IMG/VR virus record: IMGVR_UViG_3300025112_000228
Span: 1 to 21,404 of that record
Length of the DNA stretch: 21,404 bases
Direction: 5' to 3' (one strand)
Source of the DNA: a virus
Shown here piece by piece: positions 1,299-21,404 of this stretch. Position 1 is the stretch's first letter. Each line of letters opens with the position of its first letter. A model generated the notes under the pieces. It ran no database searches. It was not told the origin of the DNA and worked only from the letters and a program-made list of their open reading frames with translations. The translations under genes and the position numbers were made by a program.

Positions 1299-2278
1299 AA
1301 AGAGTGTTGATTATCGACGCGCTGAATGCGTATCTAAGAGCATACATTGTAGACCCGTCGTTGTCTTTAAATGGACAGCCGATTGGCGGCATCAAAGGCT
1401 TCATGAAGATTTTACAAAAGCTTGTGCGAGATATCAGTCCGGATGAAATAGCTGTTATTTGGGACGGACCTAATGGGTCTGCACGCCGGAAGATTATGGA
1501 CAAAAATTATAAGGACGGAAGAAAGCCCTTGCGCTTAAACCGCGCCTTCCATAACCTGTCCGAGATGGAAGTGCAAGAAAACAAAACGTGGCAGCAAGTG
1601 CGGGTGATGGAGTATCTCAATGAGATGCCCATCGTTCAAACAATTATCCCAGAGATTGAAGCAGATGATGTGATTGCTTATCTGACACAGATGGAATATT
1701 ATAAGGGGTGGCAAAAGATCATTGTCTCAAATGATAAGGATTTCATGCAGTTATGTGACGAGGAGACTGTTCTCTATCGCCCCACCAAGAAAGAGATTTT
1801 AAATAAGCAACGGATTGTTGAACAAATGGGAGTACACCCCACTAACATGGCCCTTGCGCGCGCCATCATCGGAGACCCCTCGGACAATCTACCTGGCATC
1901 CGCGGCGCCGGTTTTGCGACGGTGGCAAAAAGACTTAATTTTTTATCGGCTGAGAAAACTTATACAATTCAAGAGGTTATAGATTTCTGTGAAAAAACAA
2001 ACAGCAAACTTAAATTCTTTTCTAATATTGTAGAGGGAAAGGGCGTCGTAGAGCATAATTATATGATGATGCAGCTGTATGTTCCTCAGATGTCTTTCCA
2101 ATCAAAAATGGTTGTGAAAGAGGCGATTGAAAACTTTGAATGCACATTTGGAAAGACAGAAATTATACGTATGATGAGAGAAGATGGCTTTGGAGAGTTG
2201 AATTGGGAAGATCTGAGAGCCAGCTTAAATCGAATCAACTATAATTGCAATATGAAAAAGAAAACCAAAGACGTTTGA
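1295..2278 (+). CDS. 5'-3' exonuclease / flap endonuclease (T4 RNase H-like, PIN/FEN fold)
   Basis: The start is taken as ATG 1295, after AGGAG at 1283, because the product then begins MKRVLIIDALN, the normal first strand of this fold; an upstream ATG at 1271 adds eight unlikely Arg-rich residues. The 327-residue product shows the acidic metal-binding residues in order: D8, D57, E122 with D124/D125 (EADD), D147 and D149 (SNDKDF), D194 and D197 (GDPSDN). A helix-hairpin-helix-like LPGIRGAG follows at about 199-206. Enzymes of this type remove RNA primers and 5' flaps during lagging-strand synthesis. It is coupled to the preceding small ORF by ATGA, and the next promoter begins inside its stop codon. 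Confidence 0.88.
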   Translation: MKRVLIIDALNAYLRAYIVDPSLSLNGQPIGGIKGFMKILQKLVRDISPDEIAVIWDGPNGSARRKIMDKNYKDGRKPLRLNRAFHNLSEMEVQENKTWQQVRVMEYLNEMPIVQTIIPEIEADDVIAYLTQMEYYKGWQKIIVSNDKDFMQLCDEETVLYRPTKKEILNKQRIVEQMGVHPTNMALARAIIGDPSDNLPGIRGAGFATVAKRLNFLSAEKTYTIQEVIDFCEKTNSKLKFFSNIVEGKGVVEHNYMMMQLYVPQMSFQSKMVVKEAIENFECTFGKTEIIRMMREDGFGELNWEDLRASLNRINYNCNMKKKTKDV

Positions 2279-2303
2279 CGCTCTTTGAAAAAAGTGATAT
2301 AAT
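2275..2303 (+). promoter_or_regulatory. Sigma70-like promoter P2
   Basis: TTGACG (2275-2280) and TATAAT (2298-2303) are 17 bases apart (11 of 12 consensus matches). The exonuclease stop codon TGA (2276-2278) is part of the -35 box. The promoter would drive the helicase/nrdJ operon, starting near 2310 just before the ribosome site AAAGGG (2313-2317). Confidence 0.85.
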
Positions 2304-2323
2304 AGATTATAAAAGGGATATCA

Positions 2324-3724
2324 ATGTTGGCAACTGCTGAAAACATTAATTTTGGACGATATGGAAAAGCCTTCCAGGAAGGATTAGTACAATTAATTTT
2401 TGAGGATCGTCCGTTTGCAGATCAAATTACTGAAGTTTTAGATATTAATTTTTTAGAACTGCAGTATCTAAGGGTGTTTGCACAGAAGATTATAGCTTAT
2501 CGAGCCAAGTATAATAAACATCCTTCTGTGGAGATAGTCATGACAATGCTGCGCACAGATCTCGAGAATGAAGACAAAGTAATTCAGAAACAAGTGCGAG
2601 AATACTTCACAAGAATTCATCGGCGCGAACTTAACGACATTGAATATATCAAAGAGCAATCAATTGATTTTTGTCGCAAGCAAAACCTTAAAGAAGCGAT
2701 GCTTAAATCAGTAAACCTTTTACAAAACTGTTCGTTTGATGAAATTTCACAGACCATCAATGAAGCTTTAAAGCTGGGGTCGGAAAACAATTTTGGCTAT
2801 GATTACTTGGCCGACTTTGAACAGCGGTTTGTGCCTAAACATCGCAGCCCCGTTACGACTGGGTGGAGCGAGATGGATAACATTTTTGGGGGAGGTTTGG
2901 GCAAGAGCGAGTTGGGTGTAGTAATTGCGCCAACTGGCGCCGGCAAGTCTATGGTGCTCGTGCACCTAGGGGTTAATGCTCTTAAAGAAGGGAAAACAGT
3001 TATACATTATACTTTGGAGCTTCAAGATACTGTCATTGGAAATCGTTATGATAGTTGCTTGACAGGCTATCCTTTGTCTGATATTATTAATTTTAAAGAA
3101 GAAGTTTATGAGGAAGTTAAAAATCTAGATGGCTCGCTGATCATTAAGGAGTATCCTACTAAGTCTGCTTCGACTAATACTATTCGGGCTCACTTGTCAC
3201 AGCTTGTCAAGCGCGGGATTAAACCAGGATTGATTATTGTTGATTATGGAGACTTGCTTAGACCAGTTGTTGTCCGAAAGGAAAAGAGAACCGAGTTAGA
3301 ATCTATTTATGAGGAACTCAGATGTCTTTCTACCGAGTTTAGCTGTCCCATTTGGACAGCATCTCAAACGAATCGTTCGGGACTCAATGCTGAAGTGATC
3401 ACGATGGAACAGATCTCTGAAGCGTTCAACAAGTGTTTTGTGGCTGATTTTATCTTCTCTGTGTCTCGAACAATTGAGGACAAACAAAAGAGTTTAGGAA
3501 AAATTTTTATTGCCAAAAATCGTAATGGTCCAGATGGAATAGTTTTTCCTATATTTATGGACACAGCTAGCGTGAAAATCAAAATATTGCCTAAGAATAA
3601 TCCGCAGCTACCTGGGGGAAAGGTGCCACTTAATCCAGTCACCTTAGATGCTCCAATGCAAAAAGAATTATTGCAACAGAAATATGAAAAGCTTAGGAAG
3701 AAGAAGAGGGAGATAAACATATGA
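2324..3724 (+). CDS. DnaB-family replicative helicase (T4 gp41-like)
   Basis: This 466-residue protein has an N-terminal helical region (about 1-165) and a RecA-type ATPase core. Walker A is APTGAGKS (202-209), preceded by the typical 'TGWSEMDNIFGGGLGKSELGVV' class of segment; the Walker B strand is LIIVDYGDLL (303-312); and the ASQTNR motif (346-351) matches the DnaB H3 region. These hexameric helicases unwind the replication fork 5' to 3' and work with a primase. The length equals T4 gp41 (about 475) and E. coli DnaB (471). It starts at ATG 2324 in the leader of promoter P2 and its stop overlaps nrdJ as ATGA, so the two are probably translated together. The C-terminus is highly basic (KKKRE). 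Confidence 0.88.
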   Translation: MLATAENINFGRYGKAFQEGLVQLIFEDRPFADQITEVLDINFLELQYLRVFAQKIIAYRAKYNKHPSVEIVMTMLRTDLENEDKVIQKQVREYFTRIHRRELNDIEYIKEQSIDFCRKQNLKEAMLKSVNLLQNCSFDEISQTINEALKLGSENNFGYDYLADFEQRFVPKHRSPVTTGWSEMDNIFGGGLGKSELGVVIAPTGAGKSMVLVHLGVNALKEGKTVIHYTLELQDTVIGNRYDSCLTGYPLSDIINFKEEVYEEVKNLDGSLIIKEYPTKSASTNTIRAHLSQLVKRGIKPGLIIVDYGDLLRPVVVRKEKRTELESIYEELRCLSTEFSCPIWTASQTNRSGLNAEVITMEQISEAFNKCFVADFIFSVSRTIEDKQKSLGKIFIAKNRNGPDGIVFPIFMDTASVKIKILPKNNPQLPGGKVPLNPVTLDAPMQKELLQQKYEKLRKKKREINI

Positions 3725-5694
3725 GAACTTTAAGCACCATTCGCAGATTTAGACTATCGGACACATTTATTGAACCATATAAAATTTCGGAGGTACCGTG
3801 GGGACCTCTGGGATATGTCACTTTTAAACGTACATATGCTCGCCGCTTAAGCGAGTTTGAAGCAGGAGCGTCGGGTACAGAGGAATGGTGGCAAACCTGT
3901 CGCCGGGTAATCGAAGGCATGTTTAATATGCAGAAAGAACATGTAGTTCTACTAGGGCTTGAGTGGAATGATGCCAAGGCACAGAGCACCGCTAAGGAAG
4001 CGTATGATCGTTTGTTTAATTTAAAGTGGACGCCCCCCGGACGCGGATTGTGGATGATGGGCACCAAATTTGTGGAAGAGCGCACCGCTGCCGGCTTATT
4101 TAATTGTGCCTTCAGATCCACTAGAGATCTGCCCACCAAGGGCGGCTATTTGTTTGCATGGATGATGGATGCGTTGATGGTTGGTATCGGTGTGGGGTTT
4201 GATACTGAAGGAGCCAATTCCATTACCATTGAAGAGCCTCAATATACCAACGACGTCCATGTGATTGACGACTCCAGGGAGGGATGGGTAAATTCGGTCC
4301 ATATGTTGTTGGACGGCTTTTTTTTCGGCCAAAAAATTCCCAGATTTGATTATTCTGCTATTCGCCCATTGGGCGCCCCTATTCTTGGGTTCGGGGGCAC
4401 ATCGAGTGGTCCGGAGCCCCTGAAAGAGTTACATGCATCTTTAACAGACTTGTATACTCCTAAAATCGGAGAGCCAATTACGTCCGTTGACATTGTAGAT
4501 ACAGAGAATCTTATCGGACGCTGCGTGGTAGCTGGCAACGTTAGACGTTCAGCTGCACTAGCAATGGGGAAGCACAATGATATGTATTATCTCCAGATGA
4601 AGAACGATCAAGAGAAACTTTATCATCATCGCTGGGGTTCTAACAATTCTTTTAACGCTGTGGTGGGAATGGACTATACCTGGCACGCCAACCAAAGCCA
4701 GCAGAATGGCGAGCCAGGATATATTTGGTTAGAGAATGCGCGCAAGCGTGGACGATTTAGGGACGGCGAGCGTCTGGACGATATTAATGTGGCGGGATTT
4801 AATCCCTGCGTAGAACAACAACTTGAAGATGCAGAATTGTGTTGCCTCGTAGAGACGTTTCCTGCAAAACACGACGATTTTGAGGATTACTTGCGGACTC
4901 TTAAGATTGCATATTTATATGGAAAAACTATTACTTTATCCAACACTCATTGGCCAGAAACCAATGCTAAGATGCTTAAGAATCGCCGTATTGGACTCTC
5001 TCAATCTGGCGTAATTCAAGCTTTTAATAAGCATGGTCGTCGCGAGATATATAAATGGTGTAATGAAGCCTATGAATATATCAAAGAACTTGACGAAGAA
5101 TATTCTAATTGGTTGTGTATCCCCAAGTCAGTGCGCACCACCTCTATTAAACCTTCGGGCACTGTTTCGTTGTTAAATGGATCCACTCCAGGTATCCATT
5201 TTCCAGAGGATGAATATTATATTCGTCGCATTCGGTTTTCAAACTATTCAGAAATGCTGGAGTCGTTGCGCGAGTCGGGCTACCACATAGAAGACGACGA
5301 ATATTCTCCTAACACATCTGTAGTGGAATTTCCGGTTCATGAACCTTACTTTAAGAAAGGAAAACGCAACGTCAGCATGTGGGAACAGCTGGAGATAGCG
5401 GCTCAATATCAGTATTACTGGGCAGACAATTCAGTTTCGGTGACCGTTACTTTTAAGCCTGACGAAGCGACCCAAATTAAGGACGCTTTAGAAATGTATG
5501 AAACACGCCTTAAAGCTGTTTCGTTTTTGAAACACGAGGAGACTGGCTACAAGCAAGCTCCTTATGAATCAATTACTAAAGAAAAATATGAAAAACTAAT
5601 TAAAAACATTCGTCCGTTGCAACGGTTTGATATAGAAGAAGAGGGTACCGGAACAAAATTTTGTGACGGTGAGGCGTGCGAAGTAACATTTTAA
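3721..5694 (+). CDS. nrdJ: Adenosylcobalamin-dependent (class II) ribonucleoside-triphosphate reductase, monomeric type
   Basis: At 657 residues this is close to the monomeric Lactobacillus-type RTPR (about 739). It reduces ribonucleotides to deoxyribonucleotides using a thiyl radical generated with coenzyme B12, independent of oxygen. Visible hallmarks, by homology to RTPR: redox Cys C129 (LFNCAF) paired with C374, the active-site triplet N361, C363 and E365 (NPCVE) with the thiyl Cys C363, the SIKPSGTVS loop (475-483), and a C-terminal shuttle pair C648/C653 with the same CxxxxC spacing as RTPR. All catalytic residues are therefore present. The shuttle Cys pair is normally re-reduced by thioredoxin, and a thioredoxin-like gene lies at 14943. 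It follows the helicase with ATGA overlap. Confidence 0.92.
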   Translation: MRTLSTIRRFRLSDTFIEPYKISEVPWGPLGYVTFKRTYARRLSEFEAGASGTEEWWQTCRRVIEGMFNMQKEHVVLLGLEWNDAKAQSTAKEAYDRLFNLKWTPPGRGLWMMGTKFVEERTAAGLFNCAFRSTRDLPTKGGYLFAWMMDALMVGIGVGFDTEGANSITIEEPQYTNDVHVIDDSREGWVNSVHMLLDGFFFGQKIPRFDYSAIRPLGAPILGFGGTSSGPEPLKELHASLTDLYTPKIGEPITSVDIVDTENLIGRCVVAGNVRRSAALAMGKHNDMYYLQMKNDQEKLYHHRWGSNNSFNAVVGMDYTWHANQSQQNGEPGYIWLENARKRGRFRDGERLDDINVAGFNPCVEQQLEDAELCCLVETFPAKHDDFEDYLRTLKIAYLYGKTITLSNTHWPETNAKMLKNRRIGLSQSGVIQAFNKHGRREIYKWCNEAYEYIKELDEEYSNWLCIPKSVRTTSIKPSGTVSLLNGSTPGIHFPEDEYYIRRIRFSNYSEMLESLRESGYHIEDDEYSPNTSVVEFPVHEPYFKKGKRNVSMWEQLEIAAQYQYYWADNSVSVTVTFKPDEATQIKDALEMYETRLKAVSFLKHEETGYKQAPYESITKEKYEKLIKNIRPLQRFDIEEEGTGTKFCDGEACEVTF

Positions 5695-12100: not shown

Positions 12101-12622
12101 TTGTGTCGGGGTGGCGCTCTTGACCACATTGTTGATGATCGTTTTACGGGGCGCAAACATTTTTGGTCTGCATGTATTGTAGATCGGCCGAAGAGTTTGA
12201 AGAAGCTGGCTGAAAACATTGAAACGTTTAAACCTGAAGGGGATTTTTCCGAGGAAGAGATCATTCAATTTAAAACTGATTTGACTGGGGTGTTCCCCAT
12301 CAACTTGGTTATCAAGACAGAAACTATTGAACACTTGCAGTCGCGAGGAGTTCCTCCCATTTCTGAATTTGATCCTGACCTTTTGGTGTGTTGGTTTATA
12401 CCTCGAAAGATTATCGAGAGAAAGACAAAGAATGGCAAGCTGTATTGGATTGTGGAAGTGATCGACAGCAACAATCAGCAGACAAAGATTAGATGTTGGG
12501 GTGTAAAACCCGAGAAGGATCGTATTTACTTAAACAGACCTTACATGGCGCGCCTAAAGTACGATGAACAGTGGGGCTTTTCCACCTACGCCATTGGTAA
12601 GACGTTTAAAATATTAGGATAG
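9173..12622 (+). CDS. dnaE: DNA polymerase III alpha subunit-type replicative polymerase (DnaE-like) with intact PHP domain
   Basis: The 1149-residue length equals bacterial DnaE. The N-terminal PHP domain (1-280) carries the metal-ligand set: H14, H16 (HAHS), D48 and H49 (TDHG), E79 (GCEAYF), H134, C185, D268 and H270 (ADSHY). Retention of all of them suggests an active Mn/Zn-dependent 3'-5' proofreading nuclease. The palm has GPGRGSAAGS (436-445) and catalytic D478 and D480 (PDIDYD), with the third Asp D643 (KFDLLGL). The fingers/tau-like region includes YGFNKSHAVSYS and FQEQIALLA. A helix-hairpin-helix (IKGLG) and an OB-like C-terminus complete the C-family layout. A charged insert at about 88-130 is not in the core family. 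Start ATG 9173 overlaps the prior stop (ATGA). No separate clamp or epsilon is visible here. Confidence 0.93.
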   Translation: MNHKQSTIKFVGLHAHSVAGSLFDAIGYPNVHMDFAYENGSDGLALTDHGNMNGLAYQVLHARKMQEEGKDFKPIFGCEAYFLPSLSEWREEYTKAMEDKKKARSIKKDEQSGATVEDEGNSKKAQDILRRRSHLILLAQNQTGLNNIFKLISESYQPENYYRYPRMDYELLKKYNEGIIAASACLGGVYAGDYWQCVERDTEGNRIGFDDKRCLSLMEETTRRMLDIFGDRWYAELQWNNIPEQHELNQYIIKVAKQFGVGLISTADSHYPDPDAWKDRELYKRLGWLGKGKPSWAEDSDLPAGVEEIGYELYPKNGDQMWESYKEYTKDYDYDDDLVLNSIEETYTIAHERIDTFFPDNTVRLPGFVVPAGFTDTQALTNFSLEGLRERSLHTNRAYIDRLNHELNIIDDRGFSKYFLTMKAIADVATSMMLAGPGRGSAAGSLVAYALGITQVDPIRHGLLFSRFLRSDATDYPDIDYDVSDSMLLKEKLVEMWGEDTVAPISNWNTLQLRSLIKDISKLYDIPFIEANTVTGVMIREATPIAKKKHGIKAGVYAPTWEEVMEFSPSLQTYLAKHPAVKAHVKALVGQVRSCSRHAGGVVIAENLDRSMPLINSGGVRQTPWSEGQNVRHLEPMGFIKFDLLGLSTLKMMEGCIEHILRRHYNVENPTFEQIKDYYNKNLHPDILDMNNQKVYKNVFHKGRWAGIFQFTETGAQSFCTRGKPENIIDVSAVTSIFRPGPLSAGVDADYVEAKSHPQYISYLSDEAREITEETYGFLIFQEQIALLAHKLGGLTLDEGNMLRKVLTKKGTGKGSVKQKLHRKFINGCLDSGIAKDAAQELWDKFEYFSGYGFNKSHAVSYSIISFQCAWLWNYYPAEWMAAFLDKEPESRKEKAINIAKQFGFKIAPLDVNKSGTVWEISEDGKTLIQPLTSIKGLGMAAIEQILNNRPFTNAEDLLFREEVVYGKLNKKSLDALCRGGALDHIVDDRFTGRKHFWSACIVDRPKSLKKLAENIETFKPEGDFSEEEIIQFKTDLTGVFPINLVIKTETIEHLQSRGVPPISEFDPDLLVCWFIPRKIIERKTKNGKLYWIVEVIDSNNQQTKIRCWGVKPEKDRIYLNRPYMARLKYDEQWGFSTYAIGKTFKILG

Positions 12623-12625
12623 AAC

Positions 12626-13231
12626 ATGAAAGTAATGACATATTTTAGCCCACTCCTTAAAGAGAAGGAGTTGGTAGAAGGGTTGCCTGTTATTATACGG
12701 GTCCGAAAATTTGACGAAGCGGCAGCTAAAACCTTTTCAGAAGAAATGGCCAAAGCACAGAACACCGGTCAGCCAATTATTCCAGTAGTGATTGATAGTT
12801 ACGGGGGACAAGTGTATAGTCTGATGTCGATGATTTCAGATATTAAACACTCCACGCTACCCGTGGCCACGATTGTTCAAGGAAAGGCAATGTCATGTGG
12901 CGCCATTCTTTTTACGTTTGGCGCGGAAGGTCATCGATACATGGATCCCGATGCCACGTTTATGATTCACGACGTGAGCAGCTTTACAGGAGGCAAGATT
13001 GAAGAGCTTAAAGCCGACGTCGGGGAAGCTGAGAGGTTAAACCAGAAAGTTTTTAAAATGATGGCAAAGAACTGCGGACACCACGAAGATTACTTTTTAG
13101 ATATCGTACACGATAAAGGACATGCTGATTGGTACCTTGAATTAGATGAAGCTAAAAAACACAAGATAGTAAACCACGGGCACGTCCCCGAATTAAAGAT
13201 CAGAGCTAACGTTGAATTTGATTTTGGTTAA
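12626..13231 (+). CDS. ClpP-like serine protease (S14 family), canonical triad
   Basis: The 201-residue product has the ClpP hallmarks: a Gly-rich oxyanion region DSYGG (57-61), the nucleophile S90 in GKAMSCGA, H115 in MIHDVS, and D168 in HADWYL, aligned with the catalytic Asp region ERDRF of E. coli ClpP. The Ser-His-Asp triad therefore appears intact. Such proteins form barrel proteases that degrade unfolded proteins fed by a Clp ATPase; phage versions may also process capsid proteins. It begins four bases after the polymerase stop behind AGGATAG. No Clp ATPase is encoded here, so it would depend on a host ATPase or act alone. Compare the second paralogue at 19298. Confidence 0.82.
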   Translation: MKVMTYFSPLLKEKELVEGLPVIIRVRKFDEAAAKTFSEEMAKAQNTGQPIIPVVIDSYGGQVYSLMSMISDIKHSTLPVATIVQGKAMSCGAILFTFGAEGHRYMDPDATFMIHDVSSFTGGKIEELKADVGEAERLNQKVFKMMAKNCGHHEDYFLDIVHDKGHADWYLELDEAKKHKIVNHGHVPELKIRANVEFDFG

Positions 13232-13248
13232 ATAATACACAAAAGTTG

Positions 13249-13277
13249 TTGACATACTACAAAGAATTTGTTATATT
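13249..13277 (+). promoter_or_regulatory. Sigma70-like promoter P5
   Basis: TTGACA (13249-13254), a 17-base spacer and TATATT (13272-13277) match 11 of 12 consensus positions. It sits in the 66-base gap after the ClpP-like gene. The start point near 13284 gives a leader containing AAGGAGGG (13286-13293), the strongest ribosome site in the window. Confidence 0.85.
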
Positions 13278-13297
13278 AATAATGCAAGGAGGGCTTA

Positions 13298-13549
13298 ATG
13301 GCCAACACATATGAAGAGAAAAAGCGTTACGTGAAGGAATATATCCGCTCACTGGATGCGATTGAAGAATGCATGGAACCCTATAAGGAACAAAAGAGAG
13401 ATCTACGTAAGGAATTTCGTGAGAACGGCTGGTTGAATACAGATGAGATTCGCGCAGCAGTCAAGGCTTACCGCTTATACAAGGGGAAGTATAATATTGA
13501 TGAGGTGGTAGACAACTTTAAGATGTTGACAGGCGAGAACGAATCATGA
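13298..13549 (+). CDS. Small charged alpha-helical protein, possibly GapR/DUF2312-like
   Basis: The 83-residue product is almost all charged helix (KRYVKEYIRSLDAIEECMEPY then KEQKRDLRKEFRENG), followed by a short segment LNTDEIRAAVKAYRLYKGKYN. This pattern, a long helical coiled-coil N-terminus and a shorter 'NGfd...lr..irl' helix pair, recalls the GapR/DUF2312 family of AT-rich DNA-binding proteins, but identity is too weak to be sure. Strong ribosome site AAGGAGGG (13286-13293) and first position after P5 suggest high expression. Its stop overlaps the dUTPase start as ATGA. Confidence 0.55.
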   Translation: MANTYEEKKRYVKEYIRSLDAIEECMEPYKEQKRDLRKEFRENGWLNTDEIRAAVKAYRLYKGKYNIDEVVDNFKMLTGENES

Positions 13550-14004
13550 TTGTAGAATATGTTCCAGTGCGTCCGGACGCCCATCGTCCCACGCGAGGAC
13601 ACCCTTCAGATGCGGGGCTCGATGTATATTATTCCCCCACGGAGCAGGCAGAAACGATGCCGATCCAACCGGGAGAGAGCAAGGTAATCCCCACCGGGCT
13701 GCGCTTTGGTGTTCCACACGGTTACATGATAGAAGTCAAGAACCGTTCAAGTGTAGCAGCAAAGCGCAGCCTCATTGTGGGGGCATGCGTTGTGGATTCC
13801 GGCTATGATGGGGAGGTGTTTATTAATCTCCATAATATCGGAAAGCAGTTACAAGTGATTCAGCCAGGAGACAAGATTGCTCAACTGGTAATGATTCCGG
13901 TAGTGCATTTTCGCCCGGCTGAAGCAGCCAATGATCGATTATATGACGATCCAATTACAATTAGCGATAGAGGCGCAGGAGCACTAGGGAGCACCGATGG
14001 ATAA
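13546..14004 (+). CDS. dut: Deoxyuridine 5'-triphosphate nucleotidohydrolase (dUTPase, trimeric type)
   Basis: The 152-residue product shows all five dUTPase motifs: DAGLDV (22-27), NRSSVA (66-71), the catalytic-Asp motif VVDSGYDGEV (82-91, likely D88), GDKIAQL (109-115) and the C-terminal P-loop-like RGAGALGSTD (142-151). It hydrolyses dUTP to dUMP and pyrophosphate, keeping uracil out of phage DNA and supplying dUMP for thymidylate synthesis together with the deaminase. Length and motif order match homotrimeric dUTPases. It overlaps both neighbours (ATGA before, eight bases after). Confidence 0.95.
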   Translation: MIVEYVPVRPDAHRPTRGHPSDAGLDVYYSPTEQAETMPIQPGESKVIPTGLRFGVPHGYMIEVKNRSSVAAKRSLIVGACVVDSGYDGEVFINLHNIGKQLQVIQPGDKIAQLVMIPVVHFRPAEAANDRLYDDPITISDRGAGALGSTDG

Positions 14005-14479
14005 AAACACACAACAAGTAATGTTTAGCTCGAAATCAAAGGAGTGGGGAACGCCCCAACATTTTTTCGATAAGCTAAATAAACGTTTCGGGCCCTTTAC
14101 TTTAGACCCTTGCGCTAATTCCTCTAACTACAAAGTCGTGAAACATTTCACGGCGGATGAGAACGGCTTAGAACAGGATTGGGGAGGACATGTTGTTTTT
14201 ATGAATCCTCCCTATGGTCGTGGAATTAAAGAGTGGATCAAGAAAGCCTACGAAGAATCGCGCAAAGAAGACACAACTGTGGTAATGTTGATTCCTGCGC
14301 GCACTGATACCAGGTATTGGCACGATTATGTAATGAAAGCTAATGACTTATACTTTGTGAAAGGGCGTCTAAAATTTGGCAACGGAGAGAATAGCGCCCC
14401 CTTCCCATCAGCAGTGGTTGTGTTTGAAAATACACCGCGCAATGCTTACTTAGATTTTCCGCGTATTGGAGTAATGTAA
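13997..14479 (+). CDS. Phage-type DNA N6-adenine methyltransferase (Dam family)
   Basis: The 160-residue product fits the phage N-6-adenine-methyltransferase family: an N-terminal EWGTPQHFFDKL, then 'FTLDPCANSSN' (34-44) as the AdoMet-side segment, and the catalytic motif NPPYG (70-74) of the DPPY type, followed by VVMLIPARTDTRYWH. It transfers a methyl group from S-adenosylmethionine to adenine in DNA. The short length is normal for this phage family, which lacks a large target-recognition domain; the recognised sequence cannot be told from the protein. Likely role is protection from host restriction or a replication/packaging mark. Start ATG 13997 overlaps the dUTPase end by eight bases. 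Confidence 0.88.
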   Translation: MDKNTQQVMFSSKSKEWGTPQHFFDKLNKRFGPFTLDPCANSSNYKVVKHFTADENGLEQDWGGHVVFMNPPYGRGIKEWIKKAYEESRKEDTTVVMLIPARTDTRYWHDYVMKANDLYFVKGRLKFGNGENSAPFPSAVVVFENTPRNAYLDFPRIGVM

Positions 14480-14730
14480 TGAATCGCGAACAGCGGCGCG
14501 CCTTAAAGAAGAAGGGAATAGATGATGCAGAAATAGAACTCTCTGATAAGATTTTTCTCTTTAATCAGATTCCTGAAGAGTGTAGTAGCTGTGAGATACC
14601 CTTTGACAAAAAGGACAAATCTATGGCATTTTCGTGGAAAGTTGTAATAAGAGACAAAACCATTAGATTGTTTTGTCCTGCGTGTCTTAATAAAGTACAG
14701 GAGGCAATAAATGAGCACCAAAAAGATTAA
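14479..14730 (+). CDS. Small zinc-ribbon-like protein
   Basis: The 83-residue product begins MNREQRRALKKKG, a basic N-terminus typical of small phage proteins. It has two Cys pairs, CSSC (35-38) and CPAC (about 66-69), positioned as a four-Cys zinc ribbon around a strand-rich middle (FSWKVVIRDKTIRLF). A nucleic acid or RNA polymerase contact is plausible for such a fold but not shown. Start ATG 14479 shares a base with the methyltransferase stop (TAATG). Function unknown. Confidence 0.65.
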   Translation: MNREQRRALKKKGIDDAEIELSDKIFLFNQIPEECSSCEIPFDKKDKSMAFSWKVVIRDKTIRLFCPACLNKVQEAINEHQKD

Positions 14731-14953
14731 TAGAAGTCATCAGCGCCGCGAAGAGTTGCGAGAGGGAGCCGCAGAAAGGTCGGCATGTCGCGACAGTCGA
14801 ACCGATGTGCAACAGCTTCAGGTGCTCGACCAGCGCTTGGGGGTGGGAGAGGGCGCCACCAAAGAGCGCACCCGATTGGAAGCTTCAATAGAAGAAAAAG
14901 AAGCCGCCACTCGTAGGAATTCGCGAACTAAAGGACAGAAGAATGTCAGTTGA
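14711..14953 (+). CDS. Small highly charged hypothetical protein
   Basis: The start ATG 14711 is preceded by AGGAGG (14699-14704), a strong ribosome site placed inside the end of the previous gene, so the 20-base overlap appears real. The 80-residue product is dominated by Arg, Glu, Gln and Lys, with no hydrophobic core and repeats of short R-E-rich patterns, suggesting a disordered or helical chain. No motif is recognised. Its last 11 bases overlap the thioredoxin start. Confidence 0.55.
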   Translation: MSTKKINRSHQRREELREGAAERSACRDSRTDVQQLQVLDQRLGVGEGATKERTRLEASIEEKEAATRRNSRTKGQKNVS

Positions 14954-15305
14954 GCGTCTTTCGAAGCGCGCCCTTCAACAGATCTTGCAAGGCAAGATCA
15001 ACAAGGAAGCTGCAACTATTGTAGTAAAGTTTTATTCTAATACATGTCACTATTGTCACGCTTTGCACGAGACATATAAAAATATGGCAGAAGAATACAA
15101 AGATTTGCATTTTTTCGCTTTTAATGTGACCGATTACCCGGACATTGAACGAATATTAAGTTTTCACGGCATACCAACTATTTGTGTGATGAAGTTCGGC
15201 AAAAGAGTTCCCAAAATTCGAGTTATGCCAGATCCGCCACATCCTCACAAAGAAACTTGGTACCGCGCAGACGACATTAAATCATTTATTGAAAAGGAGA
15301 AATAA
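14943..15305 (+). CDS. Thioredoxin-like protein
   Basis: The 120-residue protein has the thioredoxin fold in order: VVKFYSNTC strand, the redox pair C35-H-Y-C38, a helix, the strand HFFAFNVTD, and the cis-Pro turn GIPTICV (P78). The CHYC dipeptide differs from the CGPC of E. coli Trx and looks more like oxidoreductase variants. It probably returns electrons to the NrdJ shuttle Cys pair; the pairing is inference but fits the class II reductase in the same window. The C-terminal segment after about residue 88 is longer and more polar than in standard thioredoxin. It starts inside the end of the preceding gene. Confidence 0.82.
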   Translation: MSVERLSKRALQQILQGKINKEAATIVVKFYSNTCHYCHALHETYKNMAEEYKDLHFFAFNVTDYPDIERILSFHGIPTICVMKFGKRVPKIRVMPDPPHPHKETWYRADDIKSFIEKEK

Positions 15306-15306
15306 T

Positions 15307-15681
15307 ATGTCAAAACATTTATATGAAGCTACTATCTTGCAGCTTAAAGGAAGAGCACTTGAGGCGTATGCTGCGCTAGAGTTATTATTCAGTGATCCCG
15401 CCACTATTCCTGACCACACGGATTGGGGAGAGGAAATTAAAAAGCATGCTCGGATACTAGCAGAAAACGAAAATACTATGGTAACACTCCAGCAGTACTT
15501 TGGTCCGCGTTTTGCCGCCCCACAACCAGTGGCGCCCACCCCTGTGTCTCCACCTGCTGAGGAACCTCCCGTGGCTCATGAGGATTTGATGGAAAGGTCT
15601 CCCACTTATCGGAGGAGCATGGATTCGGCAAAGCTTAAAGAATCTATTAAGAAAAAACAACAGCAACAGGAAGAAGAATAG
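15307..15681 (+). CDS. Hypothetical phage protein with Pro-rich linker
   Basis: The start is ATG 15307, after AAGGAG (15295-15300), rather than an earlier in-frame ATG at 15289 inside the preceding gene. The 124-residue product has a helical N-terminal domain (SKHLYEATILQLKG... LQQYFG), a Pro/Ala-rich linker (about 72-95) and a charged tail ending in Gln and Glu runs. The first part resembles small phage helical proteins with an 'I.DHtdw.eEi...' pattern, but no function is known. The TAG stop overlaps the next GTG start (TAGTG). Confidence 0.6.
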   Translation: MSKHLYEATILQLKGRALEAYAALELLFSDPATIPDHTDWGEEIKKHARILAENENTMVTLQQYFGPRFAAPQPVAPTPVSPPAEEPPVAHEDLMERSPTYRRSMDSAKLKESIKKKQQQQEEE

Positions 15682-16697
15682 TGGAGCGAGACTTATCGTA
15701 TGACGATGTGCTACTCGTTCCTCAATATTCAGACATAGCATCGCGCCAAGAAATTGATATTTCATCTGATTTGGGAAAGGGTACGTGGCTGGAGGTGCCT
15801 ATTATTGCTTCTCCTATGGATACGATTTCTGAATCTTCTATGGCTGCAGCCATGGCTTCTCATGGGGGAACTGCTATTATTCATCGATATCTTTCGATTG
15901 AGGATCAGTGTCACCACGTTGAATCTCTACCGCAGGAGGCTATTGTAGGAGCAGCGGTGGGGGCGATGGGAGACTTTGAAGAACGAGCATGCGCGTTATC
16001 TGATGCTGGCGTAAATATTATTTGCATTGATATTGCCCACGGGCATCATGTTTTAATGAAGACTGCGCTACACACACTTCGGAATGTTTTTGGAAACACC
16101 ATGCATATTATGGCAGGCAATGTGGCCACCATAGAAGGAATTAATGATTTAGCTGACTGGGGAGCAGACTCCGTGCGATGCAATATTGGAGGAGGATCAA
16201 TTTGTTCTACCAGAATTCAAACTGGACACGGGATCCCTGGCTTTCAAACGATTGTGAATTGTGCCACGACCGATAGAGATATTAAGATTATAGCCGATGG
16301 CGGAATTCGAAATTCAGGCGACATGGTTAAGGCACTCGCTGCTGGGGCAGACGCTGTAATGTGCGGTTCTCTCCTCTCTGGCACCGATGAGACGCCAGGA
16401 AAAATACTACAGGACATAGACGGCTACCGGTGGAAATCTTTTCGGGGGATGGCATGCAAAGAAGCACAGGTAGACTGGCATGGGCGCTATAGCTCTTTCG
16501 AAGGGGTAGCAGCCCGCGTGCCTTACCGCGGTCCCGTCGGACACATCCTGGAAGACTTAGAAAGGGGAATTCGATCTGGCTTTTCATATAGCGGAGCGCA
16601 TGATCTAACAGAGCTACACGCTCGAGCTAAGTTCACACAACAAACAGCGTCTGGGCTGTCCGAGAGTCACGCTCACATTATGAGTAGGAAGTGGTGA
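15681..16697 (+). CDS. guaB: IMP dehydrogenase without CBS domains (IMPDH/GMP reductase family)
   Basis: The 338-residue protein is a TIM barrel of the IMPDH/GMPR family. It begins with the diagnostic [13 protein letters not shown] (5-17) and has the catalytic loop [17 protein letters not shown] with C175, the nucleotide-phosphate strand IIADGGIR (203-210) and the flap segment ARVPYRG (278-284). In IMPDH this flap carries the Arg and Tyr that activate water; in GMP reductase the flap lacks that Arg, so IMPDH is favoured: oxidation of IMP to XMP with NAD+. The regulatory CBS pair (about 120 residues in cellular enzymes) is missing. The loop has GGGS instead of the usual GPGS. Expected result is unregulated guanine nucleotide supply. 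Start GTG 15681 overlaps the prior TAG. Confidence 0.8.
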
Positions 16698-17023
16698 TGG
16701 ATAACGACGTCGATTACGGAAATCTTACGAAGCGTATTGTGTTCACAGAAAATGATCACCGTCATGCGCAACTCATAGTGAAGCTTAAATATCTACGTCT
16801 CACTCAAGCTGCTTTTTTTCGGCATATTATTACGGGACTTATCGAAGACGACCAACGCATCTTAGAGTACACTAATGAAATTGCGGCTAAATCTAAAGTC
16901 AAGAGAGCAAAGTCCGAAAAGCTAGAAAAAATGGGCCGCCAAAAATTGCGAGATTTCGCCCTTTCGGAAGGGGAAGTAGAAAACATTTTTGATTTGTTGG
17001 AAGAGGAGTTCCCAGAGTTATGA
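16697..17023 (+). CDS. Small regulator-like protein, possible ribbon-helix-helix
   Basis: The start is ATG 16697, sharing its first base with the guaB stop (TGATG) and preceded by AGGAAG; an in-frame GTG six bases earlier is possible. The 108-residue product begins with an acidic stretch, then KRIVFTENDHRHAQLIVKLKYLRLTQAAFFRHIITGLIEDD, which follows the strand-helix-helix order of RHH DNA-binding proteins. The remainder is a charged helix with K/R/E repeats. It overlaps the sigma-like gene by ATGA, so two possible transcription regulators are co-translated. The RHH assignment is by pattern only. Confidence 0.5.
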   Translation: MDNDVDYGNLTKRIVFTENDHRHAQLIVKLKYLRLTQAAFFRHIITGLIEDDQRILEYTNEIAAKSKVKRAKSEKLEKMGRQKLRDFALSEGEVENIFDLLEEEFPEL

Positions 17024-17283
17024 AACGTCGAGATGGATTATTAGAGTGTTCTCGTTTGTGCATGGAACATAAGATACGGTGCCCCCAACAGGAATGCCGC
17101 TTATGGATTGATTATCCCGAAGAGCAGAATTGCTCTTTGATATCAGTATATGAAAATGGAAGGCTAACATTGAGAGAGGTTGCTGAGCGGCTCCATGTTT
17201 CCTTCGCGAGAATTAAACAGATAGAAACCGAAGCCTTGAAAAAACTAAAAAAGCATTGTATTCAGAATGGTTTAAATTTTTAA
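17020..17283 (+). CDS. Sigma factor region 4-like protein with Cys-rich N-terminus
   Basis: The 87-residue protein ends in LTLREVAERLHVSFARIKQIETEALKKLKK (residues about 49-78, split here only by function), which is a textbook sigma-70 region 4 helix-turn-helix with the 'R.kQIe..AL.KL' recognition helix. The first 40 residues have five Cys (C10, C14, C21, C26, C38) and 'CRLWIDYPEEQNCSL', possibly a zinc site. Regions 1-3 are absent, so it cannot act as a complete sigma; it may recognise a -35-like element or bridge host polymerase to phage promoters, perhaps late ones. The last 17 codons plus the stop and GG are duplicated 864 bases downstream. Confidence 0.72.
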   Translation: MKRRDGLLECSRLCMEHKIRCPQQECRLWIDYPEEQNCSLISVYENGRLTLREVAERLHVSFARIKQIETEALKKLKKHCIQNGLNF

Positions 17284-17285
17284 GG
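17230..17285 (+). repeat. 56-bp direct repeat, copy 1 (3' end of the sigma-like gene)
   Basis: The 56 bases from G17230 to G17285 are identical to 18094-18149. This copy encodes the last 17 residues (E-A-L-K-K-L... to F) and stop of the sigma-like gene, plus GG. The identity breaks sharply at both ends (C17229 versus A18093; A17286 versus T18150). Confidence 0.95.
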
Positions 17286-17293
17286 AGAGAGAA

Positions 17294-18103
17294 ATGGAAA
17301 AAGAAAGAATAGCAATATTATCTTTTATTAGAAATGGCACTAGTTCTATGTCTGCAGCCCTTCGCACACTGGGGTATCTTCCCACAAACAAGCCCTTTGT
17401 GCGTGATAATCCAGATGGCACTCCTGTGTGGTATATTTTGCCGGAGCACCATGGCCCCTCGTACTGGCTTGGCGACATGGTGGCGCAACGCTGCGGCGAG
17501 CTAATGAACCCCCAGCATGGCTGGGTCGTCGACCTCGCCGCCACAGATGTTGGCTGGAGTCCACCATATAATGGAATAGTGGAACTTCGGCCCCCAGCCG
17601 ACGCCCCCCAGGACATGGTGACGCTTATCGAACTATTAAAACATCCTTCCCGGGAATTCGTGCTAAACGTTTTTGAAAAGATTGATGCGAAGGGGTGGAA
17701 CGCAATAGATGATATTCCATTCATGTCTCCGGGGTGGTATGTGCCATTTAATGAGAGATATAAAAATGCTAAAAATATATTAACTGTTCGAGATTCCAAT
17801 GAGTGGTATGATTCTGTTCTTCGCCTTTTCGCTGGTGATGGCGCGAGGAGTGACAAAGCCGCCACCGCAGTTTTTTTTGATGTTCCTGCCTTCACCGAAG
17901 AACATCGGAAGTTATCCATTATGAGATACGAAGCACACAACCAACAAGTAATTGATTATTTTAAAGCTAAGCCTGAAAAGTTGTTGGTTTTGAAGTTGCC
18001 GTTTAACGATAATAGTTGGAAACCGCTATGTAACTTTTTAGATAAAGAGGTGCCAACAGTGTCTTTCCCTTGGCTACACGCTACCCGGCAACAGAAGCCT
18101 TGA
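17294..18103 (+). CDS. Sulfotransferase-family protein (PF17784-like), probable cargo gene
   Basis: The 269-residue product starts at ATG 17294, seven bases after AAGGAGA (17283-17289), whose AAGG comes from repeat copy 1. Near the N-terminus, IRNGTSSM (12-19) fits the 5'-phosphosulfate loop that binds PAPS. NILTVRDSNEWYDSVLRL (161-178) fits the 3'-phosphate site (R166, S174). The C-terminal pattern LLVLKLPF...WKPLCNFLDKEVPTVSFP is the family's typical ending. It would transfer sulfate from PAPS to a hydroxyl or amine acceptor; the acceptor is unknown, perhaps a host surface or virion glycan. The middle is visibly more GC-rich than neighbours. The stop TGA (18101) and the last residues (Q-K-P) lie in repeat copy 2, read in a different frame from the sigma gene. 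Confidence 0.78.
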   Translation: MEKERIAILSFIRNGTSSMSAALRTLGYLPTNKPFVRDNPDGTPVWYILPEHHGPSYWLGDMVAQRCGELMNPQHGWVVDLAATDVGWSPPYNGIVELRPPADAPQDMVTLIELLKHPSREFVLNVFEKIDAKGWNAIDDIPFMSPGWYVPFNERYKNAKNILTVRDSNEWYDSVLRLFAGDGARSDKAATAVFFDVPAFTEEHRKLSIMRYEAHNQQVIDYFKAKPEKLLVLKLPFNDNSWKPLCNFLDKEVPTVSFPWLHATRQQKP

Positions 18104-18149
18104 AAAAACTAAAAAAGCATTGTATTCAGAATGGTTTAAATTTTTAAGG
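18094..18149 (+). repeat. 56-bp direct repeat, copy 2 (downstream of the sulfotransferase)
   Basis: Identical to 17230-17285. It supplies the stop of the sulfotransferase in another frame, and its final TAAGG could act as a ribosome site for the short ORF at 18160. It no longer carries a complete gene. Confidence 0.95.
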
Positions 18150-18159
18150 TATTTATGGA

Positions 18160-18207
18160 ATGGCACTACTAATTACAGGTGAGTTTTTATCTAAAGGAGA
18201 ATTATGA
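18160..18207 (+). CDS. Possible 15-codon leader peptide before the acidic protein
   Basis: ATG 18160 opens a frame of 15 codons ending in TGA 18205-18207, which overlaps the next start codon as ATGA. The AAGG at the end of repeat copy 2 (18146-18149) lies 10 bases upstream. Its exact fit suggests translational coupling, or a remnant of the gene that followed the sigma-like gene before the insertion. Too short to confirm. Confidence 0.25.
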   Translation: MALLITGEFLSKGEL

Positions 18208-18818
18208 TGGCTCGTAAGAAACTTTTGACTGAATCTGAGATTCGTCGTTTTATGAAATTAGCCAATATGGGTGTGATTGGTGATAGCAGAATTGAGGGAA
18301 TAAGCCTCCAAGAGCAGCCCATGGATCTTGGAGACGAGGAAGTAGAGATGGACGCTGAAGTCGAAATGGAGCCTGAAGCGCCCGTCGAAGACGAGCTATC
18401 CATGGACGAGCCTGTTGAGGATGAGATGGGCATGGAAATGGGAGGCGAAGGTCTTCAAGTTTCCCTCGATGACTTTATGACCGCATTTGCCGGCGCCCTT
18501 GAAGATGCAACCGGAGAAGAGGTTAGTATTGAAATGGGCGATTTGGAAGGCGAAGAAGAGGTAGACCTCGAGGGAGGTGAGGAAACATTAGACGTATCGG
18601 CTGAAGAAGACTTAGGCGAGCCAGGCGGCATGGACGTAGGCGCCGAAGAGGAAGAACTGGAAATGCCCGGCGGCCGCGACAGTTACCAGGAAAACCAAAA
18701 CAAGGTAGTCCGTGAAGTAGCGCGTCGGGTTGCTGCGCGCCTCGTGAAAGAAAACAAAAAAGCCGATATGGTAGATGCTCTTACAGAAAGAGTTTTTAAG
18801 CGTCTTACACGCAAATAA
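18204..18818 (+). CDS. Very acidic scaffold/head-core-like protein
   Basis: The start ATG 18204 (or 18207) follows AAAGGAGA. The 204-residue product has three parts. The N-terminus (1-25), ARKKLLTESEIRRFMKLANMGVI, is a basic helix of the kind repeated in structural proteins of some large phages. The middle (about 38-158) is dominated by Glu, Asp, Met and Gly with short repeats such as VEDE and EMG. The C-terminus (160-204) is a basic amphipathic helix rich in Arg and Lys. Such a disordered acidic centre between binding ends resembles internal head or scaffolding proteins. No specific family is certain. It is the first gene after the insertion and is closed by the hairpin at 18848. Confidence 0.6.
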   Translation: MMARKKLLTESEIRRFMKLANMGVIGDSRIEGISLQEQPMDLGDEEVEMDAEVEMEPEAPVEDELSMDEPVEDEMGMEMGGEGLQVSLDDFMTAFAGALEDATGEEVSIEMGDLEGEEEVDLEGGEETLDVSAEEDLGEPGGMDVGAEEEELEMPGGRDSYQENQNKVVREVARRVAARLVKENKKADMVDALTERVFKRLTRK

Positions 18819-18821
18819 TAC

Positions 18822-18850
18822 TTGACTTTCCCCTGACGAACAGATATAAT
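18822..18850 (+). promoter_or_regulatory. Sigma70-like promoter P6
   Basis: TTGACT (18822-18827), 17-base spacer and TATAAT (18845-18850) match 11 of 12 consensus positions. It starts three bases after the acidic-protein stop. Its -10 overlaps the 5' arm of a hairpin, and its likely start point (near 18857) falls within that arm. Confidence 0.85.
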
Positions 18851-18877
18851 AACCACTGGACCTCTCCGGTGGTTATT
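18848..18877 (+). terminator. Hairpin with T-rich tail overlapping promoter P6
   Basis: A 12-bp stem, 18848-18859 with 18866-18877, contains one G-T pair and a six-base loop. Downstream comes a T-rich TTTGTTT stretch that is shorter than an ideal intrinsic terminator. It could terminate transcripts reading through from the acidic-protein operon. Transcripts started at P6 begin inside the 5' arm and could not form the full stem. It could instead be an operator or a 5' structure. Confidence 0.5.
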
Positions 18878-18891
18878 TGTTTAGAGGCTGC

Positions 18892-19305
18892 ATGGAATAC
18901 ACATACTTATTATACTTGTTGGTTTTTGCATTTGGATACCTTACATGCAGAACATTCTATTTTGTAGGAAGCGCTCGAAAAAGCATGCAATTAATGCGCA
19001 TCACTCAACTAATCGCCCTATATATTACTGTGAAGGGTCTGGAAAATTTTCAATACTCACGACAATACCGTTTAAACATCATGAACGAAAGCAAAGCCAG
19101 TGAACAAAACGTAAAAGCGTTTAAGCTGCAGTTTGAAGACGACGTATCTTTATATAAAACAAGAACGATCAAGAAGATGATCGCTGCGCATGGCGGATTT
19201 TTTAATCATTTAGTACAATTTGAGGACTGGAACGGCGCCATGAAATTTTTAGAGAAGAACAGACAAGAGGTTATAAACCTTATTATGGAGGAGTGGAATG
19301 ATTAA
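18892..19305 (+). CDS. Single-span membrane protein of unknown function
   Basis: The start is taken as ATG 18892, four bases after AGAGG (18883-18887); an in-frame TTG at 18877 lies within the hairpin and is less likely. The 137-residue product starts with a hydrophobic span (about 4-22, YTYLLYLLVFAFGYLTC), then a long charged helix including RKSMQLMRITQLIALYITVKGLE and a coiled-coil-like C-terminus. Topology is probably N-anchor with a cytoplasmic domain. No family recognised. It is first after promoter P6 and overlaps the second ClpP-like gene by eight bases, suggesting co-translation. Confidence 0.65.
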   Translation: MEYTYLLYLLVFAFGYLTCRTFYFVGSARKSMQLMRITQLIALYITVKGLENFQYSRQYRLNIMNESKASEQNVKAFKLQFEDDVSLYKTRTIKKMIAAHGGFFNHLVQFEDWNGAMKFLEKNRQEVINLIMEEWND

Positions 19306-19930
19306 GCGACTTAAAGAGAAAGTAAATAAAATGCTCGAAGGCGACGACGAAAAGAAAATTCTCCTTATTGAACACCCTTCTAATGGTGACAACGAGCCGG
19401 ACATGCGGATAATAGGACTATTTGCAGATGTAACAGAAGAGAAGGTAGCGGAAGTGATCCTTGGTCTTTTGTATATGAATGAGCAGAATAAGCTGCTTCC
19501 TGACGATGAACAAGAGAGAGAAATTCAGTTTTATATTTCTACCTACGGGGGAAACGCAGATGACATGTTTGCGCTTTATGATATGATGAAACAAATTCAG
19601 CAAACCACCGACATTAGTACCATTGGCGTGGGCAAGGTGATGTCGGCCGGCGTTCTGCTGTTGGCAGGAGGCACCCCCGGCAAAAGAAAGGTAGGAAGAA
19701 ATTGTAGAATAATGCTTCACTCTGTAGTGGCTGGCAATCATGGCTCGCTACATAATCTCATAAATGAGATGGAAGCTATTCAAGACTTACAACAAATGTA
19801 TATAAATCGTTTAGTAGAAGAAACAAAAATGACCAAATCTCAACTCAAAAAAATGTTGGAACGTAAAGTTAATATCTATTTATCACCAGAGCAAGCAGTT
19901 GAGTATGGGATTGCAGATGAAATTATATAA
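19298..19930 (+). CDS. Second ClpP-like protein with Asn in place of the catalytic Asp
   Basis: The 210-residue product carries the ClpP fold: oxyanion Gly pair STYGG (81-85), nucleophile S116 in GKVMSAGV, H141 in IMLHSVV, and the C-terminal YLSPEQAVEYGIADEI, nearly identical in pattern to ClpP 'FLSAPEAVEYGLVDSI'. By this alignment, the position of the third triad residue is N192, not Asp. ClpP with a non-Asp third residue can have reduced activity or depend on partners, as in ClpP/ClpR mixed rings. It is strongly preceded by GGAGGAG and coupled to the membrane protein. Alternative role: prohead maturation protease, because it sits beside structural-looking genes. It differs clearly from the paralogue at 12626. 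Confidence 0.8.
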   Translation: MIKRLKEKVNKMLEGDDEKKILLIEHPSNGDNEPDMRIIGLFADVTEEKVAEVILGLLYMNEQNKLLPDDEQEREIQFYISTYGGNADDMFALYDMMKQIQQTTDISTIGVGKVMSAGVLLLAGGTPGKRKVGRNCRIMLHSVVAGNHGSLHNLINEMEAIQDLQQMYINRLVEETKMTKSQLKKMLERKVNIYLSPEQAVEYGIADEII

Positions 19931-19941
19931 GGAGAATAGAG

Positions 19942-21404
19942 ATGTCTGATGGGTTAAGTGATATTTTAGAGGTAGAATATGGCAAAGCAAAAGAAAAGAA
20001 AAACACTGTTGATCTTTCTTCGCTATTAGAAATGGTGGAGAGGGTTTATGATACCATTGGATCTGAAGTGATCGGAGAAGCGAAAGAGGAACGTTCAATG
20101 GAGGAGTTATACAAATTTCTTCCTCAGTTTGAATTCAGCGAAATGATTGGGCGCCCAGATGATGCTGATATTGCGAACAAAGGAGAGGTCCGGTCTACAT
20201 TTACAACTTTGATGAGCGGAATTGCACCAGGCGAAGGGCTACAGGAAAAAATAGATAGTGTGAATGAATTTGTTAGTTCTACCGCGCCAGAGGTGGAGTC
20301 TGCGGCAGAAGTACTTCGTAATTTGACTTTTTTACGCTTGTTATCTGTGGTTGTTCAAGATTTCACCGATGCGGGTGCCGGTTTTATCTTTGAGGCATTT
20401 CTTGCAGGGTTGTTAGGGGGCGCCCAAGTATCTGGACGCGGAGGCGAAGAAACAAAAGGAAGCCTTCCTATTCACGACTACAACGACAACGAAGGAAAGC
20501 CTGTCAGCCTTAAACTTCTTAATCCTAAAACTCCAATTGGTGGAAGCCTATATAACATAACGAAATTTTTGGCAAATCACCCACTTGGGGTGCAGCATGG
20601 CATTCGATACATTGTTGCGATCAAATATGATGATGAAAAGTTAGGATTTTATGAGTTTACAATTGATCGTTTAAATTATTTTGATTGGCTTGGAGAATAT
20701 ATTGATCTTGATGAGATTAATGTCTCCGCGCCTCAGCCAGTAACCGAAGCAGAAGATCCGAGGGTAGAGAAATTGAGACAACACGCTGATAAGTTCAAGG
20801 AAACAATTATTAGTTTAATGCCCATGATGGGACACTCTGTTGAAAACGCAAGAAACAGGTTATCCCCCATAGAAGATGCTGCCGAGTTTACTGGCAATAG
20901 CGGACTAGGTTCGCTGCGGCATTCAAAGTTTGGCGGCACAAATTTGGATTTAATGGCCGACGAGGCTGGGCGCGCCGCCTTTGAAAAGTTTTTAAGCGTG
21001 GCTGGTATTTCAGCGCCAGAAAATGCACAAATATCGCCAGAATCAGATCTCGACCTCGTTCGTAAAGCGCGCTATAAACTCCTCAAAGATGCAATGATTA
21101 AGCTTAGCCCAGATAATCCGCTTTCCATAAGATCGATGCGTCAGTTGTATAATATTGAACACGCAGAAGAAGCCGGTATTGAAGTTGGTGATAAGGTAAA
21201 AGTCCTTAATCAGTTAGCCCAAACCAACCCCGAAGCGTGGGGGGAGACTATTTTAGCAAACGCTAAAAGAGGAGGAGGTGGAGTTTTTCCTAATTCGCAA
21301 TTCGAATTAAAACAAGCACAAGCTCTATCTCGACCAGAGACAATTAACTTTGGAAATCTCGTGATTGGAAAATCTCAAGTGCTCCAAGTAATGAATAGTT
21401 ATGG
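19942..21404 (+). CDS. Large phage protein with a possible PD-(D/E)XK-like core, truncated at the right edge
   Basis: The frame is open from ATG 19942, after AAGGAGAA (19929-19936), to the end of the window, giving at least 487 residues without a stop. The N-terminus (1-110) is acidic and helical. Residues 145-205 contain GFIFEAFLAGLLGG, then a loop PIHDYNDNEGKPVSLKLL: E151, D179 and S189-L-K191 are spaced somewhat like the E, D and xK of PD-(D/E)XK nucleases, but the usual E before the K is Ser. The following segment GSLYNI fits a conserved Gly-Ser turn. Homologues in large phages are usually called structural or virion proteins. Function is not settled; both a virion component and a nuclease-like protein remain possible. 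Confidence 0.55.
   Translation, partial: MSDGLSDILEVEYGKAKEKKNTVDLSSLLEMVERVYDTIGSEVIGEAKEERSMEELYKFLPQFEFSEMIGRPDDADIANKGEVRSTFTTLMSGIAPGEGLQEKIDSVNEFVSSTAPEVESAAEVLRNLTFLRLLSVVVQDFTDAGAGFIFEAFLAGLLGGAQVSGRGGEETKGSLPIHDYNDNEGKPVSLKLLNPKTPIGGSLYNITKFLANHPLGVQHGIRYIVAIKYDDEKLGFYEFTIDRLNYFDWLGEYIDLDEINVSAPQPVTEAEDPRVEKLRQHADKFKETIISLMPMMGHSVENARNRLSPIEDAAEFTGNSGLGSLRHSKFGGTNLDLMADEAGRAAFEKFLSVAGISAPENAQISPESDLDLVRKARYKLLKDAMIKLSPDNPLSIRSMRQLYNIEHAEEAGIEVGDKVKVLNQLAQTNPEAWGETILANAKRGGGGVFPNSQFELKQAQALSRPETINFGNLVIGKSQVLQVMNSY

Follow-up and report, generated by a model that had tools for sequence, protein, structure and literature searches.

Mobile cassettes of T4-type phages were reportedly described by Arbiol et al. 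in 2010. The repeat of a T4-type cassette carries a promoter and a stem-loop. Sulfotransferase genes have been found in OM43 phage contigs (as Sulfotransfer_3) and in Synechococcus phage S-SRM01, their role in the phage being called unclear (PMC10580990), and have also been reported in glacier viruses (PMC8290583). Calling such an enzyme in a marine virus is not unusual by itself. Here we analysed a 21,404-nt stretch of viral DNA (the window) that carries a predicted sulfotransferase gene as a repeat-bounded insertion, with a hypervariable patch inside the gene. Phage sulfotransferases are already known; for this mobile, patch-hypervariable form we found no description, and for other phage or viral sulfotransferases no report of patch variability or of repeat-bounded insertion. 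We consider these two properties the real finding. The gene, its predicted active site and its immediate neighbours are as follows.

17020–17283, + strand: native gene on the upstream side, encoding an 87-aa sigma-70 region 4 protein (PF04545, 7e-10).
17294–18103, + strand: sulfotransferase ORF (Sulfotransfer_4, PF17784), 269 aa, assigned from its translation, the PF17784 profile, the fold and invariant active-site residues.
17327–17350, + strand: 5'-phosphosulfate-binding loop IRNGTSSM, residues 12–19, from the translation and a 26-sequence alignment.
17711–17719, + strand: candidate catalytic base motif D140-I-P142, an invariant D.P in alignments that include schistosome SULT.
17789–17815, + strand: 3'-phosphate site R166-D-S-N-E-W-Y-D-S174, from the 26-sequence alignment.
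18204–18818, + strand: downstream native gene, a 204-aa acidic protein, next after the sigma-like gene in relatives.

The sulfotransferase frame is open from its ATG start to a TGA stop (18101–18103) and is preceded by a good Shine–Dalgarno sequence, AAGGAGAG. An earlier note, made from the sequence, had proposed a PAPS-dependent enzyme of the Sulfotransfer_4 type and had named an HMM search against PF17784 and a structure prediction as checks. In the Pfam profile search, the protein matched PF17784 in two stretches with 86.4 bits (E = 3.2e-24) against a curated cut-off of 22.8 bits; the allele in the related contig L003 scored 85.6 bits. The IRNGTSSM loop that the earlier note had read is present, and both members of the R166/S174 pair that it had singled out are invariant, together with G15, T16, D140, P142, H215 and N216, in 26 of 26 aligned sequences. 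The [KR]TGT-type 5'-phosphosulfate loop is present as R13-N14-G15-T16, in which N14 is unusual; in the same alignment the loop departs from the family consensus at two positions, S10 for G and N14 for T. By sequence, the proteins of solved structure nearest to it are Streptomyces Cpz8 and the schistosome sulfotransferases, and D140 pairs with the Asp of the schistosome SULT DLP motif. In SmSULT, Asp91 is close enough to the accepting hydroxyl for a hydrogen bond (PMC4618941), and D140 is probably its equivalent, judging from the alignment and residue numbering.

An AlphaFold2 model built on the 26-row alignment (mean pLDDT 71.5) returned sulfotransferases as the top structural matches both in Foldseek and in a VIA comparison, the latter with Z 14.7 to schistosome SULT 5tiz (3.6 Å over 192 residues) and Z 14.6 to Streptomyces Cpz8 9kf2; the next fold groups had Z of around 11 and below. 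Profile, alignment and predicted fold thus support the earlier assignment of the product as a predicted PAPS-dependent sulfotransferase of the Sulfotransfer_4 type. The note had overlooked the repeat-bounded insertion, the empty site of the relatives and the variable patch described below. The accompanying view that phages rarely carry such genes holds in part: a tblastn search of INPHARED gave no match to the full protein, and a query without the insertion described below yielded just two matches at chance level, but sulfotransferases of other phages and viruses are on record (PMC10580990).

The gene had also been placed in an early or regulatory region, a loose description of a neighbourhood that encodes IMP dehydrogenase (PF00478, 15681–16697), the small sigma-70 region 4 protein, the acidic protein and a ClpP-like protease (PF00574, 19298–19930). 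Another ORF of the window, at 12626–13231, has by eye only the appearance of a second ClpP. Beside the sulfotransferase gene, nothing was recognised as a gene for sulfate activation or glycans, and PADLOC gave no match that would suggest a role in defence. Some bacterial homologs of the sulfotransferase adjoin glycosyltransferase genes.

A scan with the ClpP-like neighbour gathered 80 related viral contigs. The sulfotransferase gene is carried by the window contig and three near-identical contigs (L003, L004 and L005). The distance between the sigma-like and acidic genes is 32–72 nt in the 55 relatives in which both could be placed, and 924–936 nt in the window, L003 and L004 only; L005 ends within the sulfotransferase gene. 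The additional DNA is bounded by a direct repeat.

17226–17285, + strand: left copy of a 60-nt direct repeat, the native 3' end of the sigma-like ORF (17020–17283), matched at 55–56 of 60 bases in the empty sites of L006 and L007.
17286–18149, + strand: inserted 864-nt unit, comprising the sulfotransferase and the duplicated repeat, absent at this site in 55 relatives.
18090–18149, + strand: right copy of the repeat (59 of 60), encoding the last residues and stop of the sulfotransferase, then passing into the native leader of the acidic gene.

The right copy starts inside the sulfotransferase ORF, provides its TGA and continues into the acidic-gene leader, and the empty-site sequence of L006 runs on as the window does past this copy. 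Because the two window copies differ at a single base, against 55–56 of 60 bases kept in the closest empty-site relatives, the insertion is recent. By comparison of filled and empty sites, then, the sulfotransferase gene is a recent single-gene insertion, and the same comparison shows that it left the sigma-like frame intact, as well as the predicted enzyme and the leader of the acidic gene. PF17784 was found nowhere else in 49 relative records, a set that holds no positive control, with the same search positive on the window record. Single-protein patterns in genome_contigs yielded distant relatives only and no close cellular donor. This uncultured marine tailed phage thus acquired the sulfotransferase as single-gene cargo directly behind the sigma-like gene, with recombination, the putative mechanism, duplicating 60 nt of the sigma-like gene end. 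A cassette with a promoter and stem-loop was rejected, since a search confined to the sigma-70 type gave no promoter-like or terminator-like site on the + strand, and the hairpin is no better than those of shuffled sequences (z −0.83). The empty and filled sites show a cargo gene entering a compact phage operon with its neighbours unbroken.

Other insertions and replacements were seen in these phages. In L040, a small native ORF homologous to window 13298–13549 occurs twice, at 1–206 and 1529–1734, on either side of an inserted 364-aa ORF, which is thus another cargo gene enclosed by native gene copies. In L021, a 142-nt direct repeat (96.5%; 3232–3372 and 3805–3946) over the start of the homolog of the same window ORF encloses an insert of about 570 nt with a 111-aa ORF to which no function was assigned. 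L040 also carries, between dUTPase and Dam (2214–3735), an ORF that its neighbourhood alone marks as a possible restriction enzyme, with an N6/N4 DNA methyltransferase after it, and a 120-nt piece of the Dam gene start is duplicated at 1285–1404 (77.5%). The ORF before groEL (window 19942–21402, L003 7669–9276, L004 4375–5562; no Pfam match) has its first 35–45 residues or so in common and is almost wholly different in the remainder, so that alleles are abruptly replaced at a second site, around 2 kb from the sulfotransferase.

L004 provides evidence of movement between lineages. Over much of the flanks it differs from the window by roughly 10–25 positions per 100 bp; over approximately 17000–18600, the patch excepted, it differs by 0–3 per 100 bp, so that a backbone diverged by around 10% holds a tract about 99% identical to the window around the sulfotransferase gene. 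At 17046, 17061 and 17244, L004 shares its base with L005 against the window and L003, and at 17082 L003 agrees with L005, a mosaic of shared SNPs that points to recombination in this stretch. On the evidence of the near-identity tract, the cassette moves between phage lineages around 10% apart, carried together with its flanks by homologous recombination.

Against this near-identity, one segment of the enzyme has changed. Three nested features describe it.

17396–17603, + strand: hypervariable patch, residues 35–104, holding all 46 intragenic difference columns between the window and L003.
17492–17542, + strand: patch core, residues 67–83, with no detectable similarity to the allele of L003, L004 and L005, which is 12 nt longer.
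17408–17611, + strand: insertion of around 68 aa, residues ~39–106, missing from all cellular homologs examined.

Between the window and L003, 48 difference columns were found over 12286–20042, of which 46 (34 substitutions and 12 gap columns) fall within 208 bp of the sulfotransferase gene; outside the patch the two differ at 15967 and 17082 only. Eight isolated codons are changed outside the core (35, 51, 60, 62, 64, 67, 89 and 104), all eight non-synonymously and four with two changes, and twelve changes would fall in so few codons with P = 0.0016 under random placement. In the core, residues 67–83 could not be aligned to the 21 residues of L003 (P = 0.83 for DNA and 0.86 for protein against shuffles). 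A homologous but saturated core was rejected, its similarity being no higher than that of shuffled sequence, as was an invertible segment, since the core, read as its reverse complement, shows no match to the other allele (P = 0.31). Two alleles are known: allele A in one contig, the window, and allele B in three contigs, L003, L004 and L005, despite the far-diverged backbone of L004. Scans of viral_contigs for further alleles returned only the three carriers and a distant gene in contig L116. Comparison of these two alleles shows the patch replaced between near-identical phages. That phages identical over kilobases differ in one segment of an enzyme points to a part of the protein under selection.

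The patch is held within the insertion, which is lacking in every cellular homolog collected (22 from genome_contigs, together with plasmid homologs). Its GC content is 55–68% within 17420–17640 (60-nt windows), above most of the gene, and GC3 is 0.60 for residues 35–104, 0.32 before them and 0.42 after. Pfam has no match to the insertion, and PDB sequences gave none that was significant. Model pLDDT is below 50 at residues 53–93, and confidence in the insertion is lower still in a model of the L003 allele. The insertion most likely contributes to the acceptor site, and it most likely changes fast in response to an acceptor that itself varies, for instance LPS, capsule or exopolysaccharide of the host. 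In that role it would take part in acceptor recognition, with selection for different acceptors driving its change.

How the patch came to differ was weighed against two other origins. In a diversity-generating retroelement (DGR), a reverse transcriptase would rewrite the variable region from an adenine-rich template, and the patch resembles a DGR target in that its changes are confined to a short stretch, cluster by codon and, outside the core, always alter the residue, with the rest of the gene frozen. A DGR origin is nevertheless very improbable. Instead of the fixed length and changes at template adenines that characterize a DGR, the alleles differ by 12 nt, have a core without similarity and conserve 31 adenines in the patch edges; moreover, the patch sits in the N-terminal half of the gene. 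No RVT_1 was detected in the window, the three carriers and the 49 relative records (53 records, possibly all fragments), and no template copy was found in the loci examined or, for the conserved 3' end of the patch, in viral_contigs, genomes that are incomplete. Taken together, the length difference, the conserved edge adenines and the failure to find a reverse transcriptase or template in the records searched disfavour a DGR. It is quite unlikely that the difference is instead an assembly artefact, the window contig joining reads of two related sulfotransferase genes from one metagenome. Such a join would suit the occurrence of allele A in one contig only and allele B in three, but both alleles are in frame despite a length difference of 12 nt (four codons), scattered codon changes reach beyond the core on both sides, for around 100 nt leftward and 60 nt rightward, and no donor gene was found in viral_contigs. 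Because recombination is visible in the surrounding tract, we favour exchange with unsampled alleles: the patch was probably swapped by recombination and kept diverse by selection.

The earlier note had suggested that the enzyme sulfates a host-surface glycan, LPS or a virion glycan, for example to block superinfecting phages. Rapid change in an insertion that follows the PAPS loop is compatible with a variable acceptor and gives mild, indirect support to the surface-glycan idea. Since phage–host conflict over surface glycans changes fast and some bacterial homologs lie beside glycosyltransferase genes, we infer that a host-surface polysaccharide is the most likely acceptor, with a role in superinfection as a conceivable consequence; sulfated LPS, capsule or exopolysaccharide would alter phage adsorption or exclude competitors. 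The main rival on the acceptor, which we judge somewhat unlikely, is a metabolic or detoxifying enzyme that acts on a small molecule and has no surface-glycan role. The closest solved structures are indeed small-molecule or natural-product sulfotransferases (schistosome SULT, Cpz8 and SgdX2), but a housekeeping acceptor would not explain the quick replacement of one segment, and the glycosyltransferase genes near bacterial homologs also speak against it. A decaying passenger, in which the insertion and the altered loop mark loss of function, is decidedly improbable: the loop is off consensus at S10 and N14 and the patch appears unconstrained, but the frames are open in three complete copies with active-site residues retained, variation between the window and L003 is confined to residues 35–104, and five extra differences in the L004 gene outside the patch leave its frame open. 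Also unlikely, we think, is an antibody-like hypervariable acceptor loop, in which the phage population would maintain a pool of interchangeable acceptor-recognition segments in a mobile one-gene cassette, diversified by a non-DGR route, and so sulfate whatever surface glycan its present hosts or rivals rely on. On balance it is probable that the gene is PAPS sulfotransferase cargo, recently inserted and moved by recombination, with a fast-diversifying insertion, and that it acts on a variable host-surface glycan.

Compared with known systems, the locus is like phage 'morons' and T4-type mobile cassettes in having one extra gene between conserved neighbours, which recombination at short repeats could remove or move. 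Unlike in those cassettes, the repeat here is the copied coding end of a neighbour, with no + strand sigma-70-type promoter or terminator found. The patch shares with DGR targets its local, codon-clustered, non-synonymous variation, and differs from them in its varying length, its retained adenines and the absence of a detected reverse transcriptase or template. The protein has the profile match of Sulfotransfer_4 and shares with Cpz8 (9kf1/9kf2), SgdX2 (8y9p) and schistosome SULT (4mub, 5tiz) the predicted fold, PAPS loop, R/S 3'-phosphate site and D.P motif. It is 23–38% identical to cellular homologs, from which it is set apart by a GC-rich insertion of around 68–72 aa that follows the PAPS loop helix, precedes the D.P motif and is hypervariable when near-identical phages are compared. 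Like the window, Synechococcus phages S-SRM01 and S-SCSM1, OM43 phage contigs, Hokovirus and L116 carry virus-borne sulfotransferases. Those of OM43 phages were reported as Sulfotransfer_3 (PF13469), unlike the Sulfotransfer_4 enzyme of the window. Contig L116 encodes a 502-aa ORF (3903–5408) ending in a Sulfotransfer_4 domain (1.7e-40), the same type as in the window but placed behind an N-terminal part that is glycosyltransferase-like by eye. For a class of enzymes whose role in phages has been stated as unclear (PMC10580990), the natural pair of alleles described here allows a direct test of the candidate acceptor segment.
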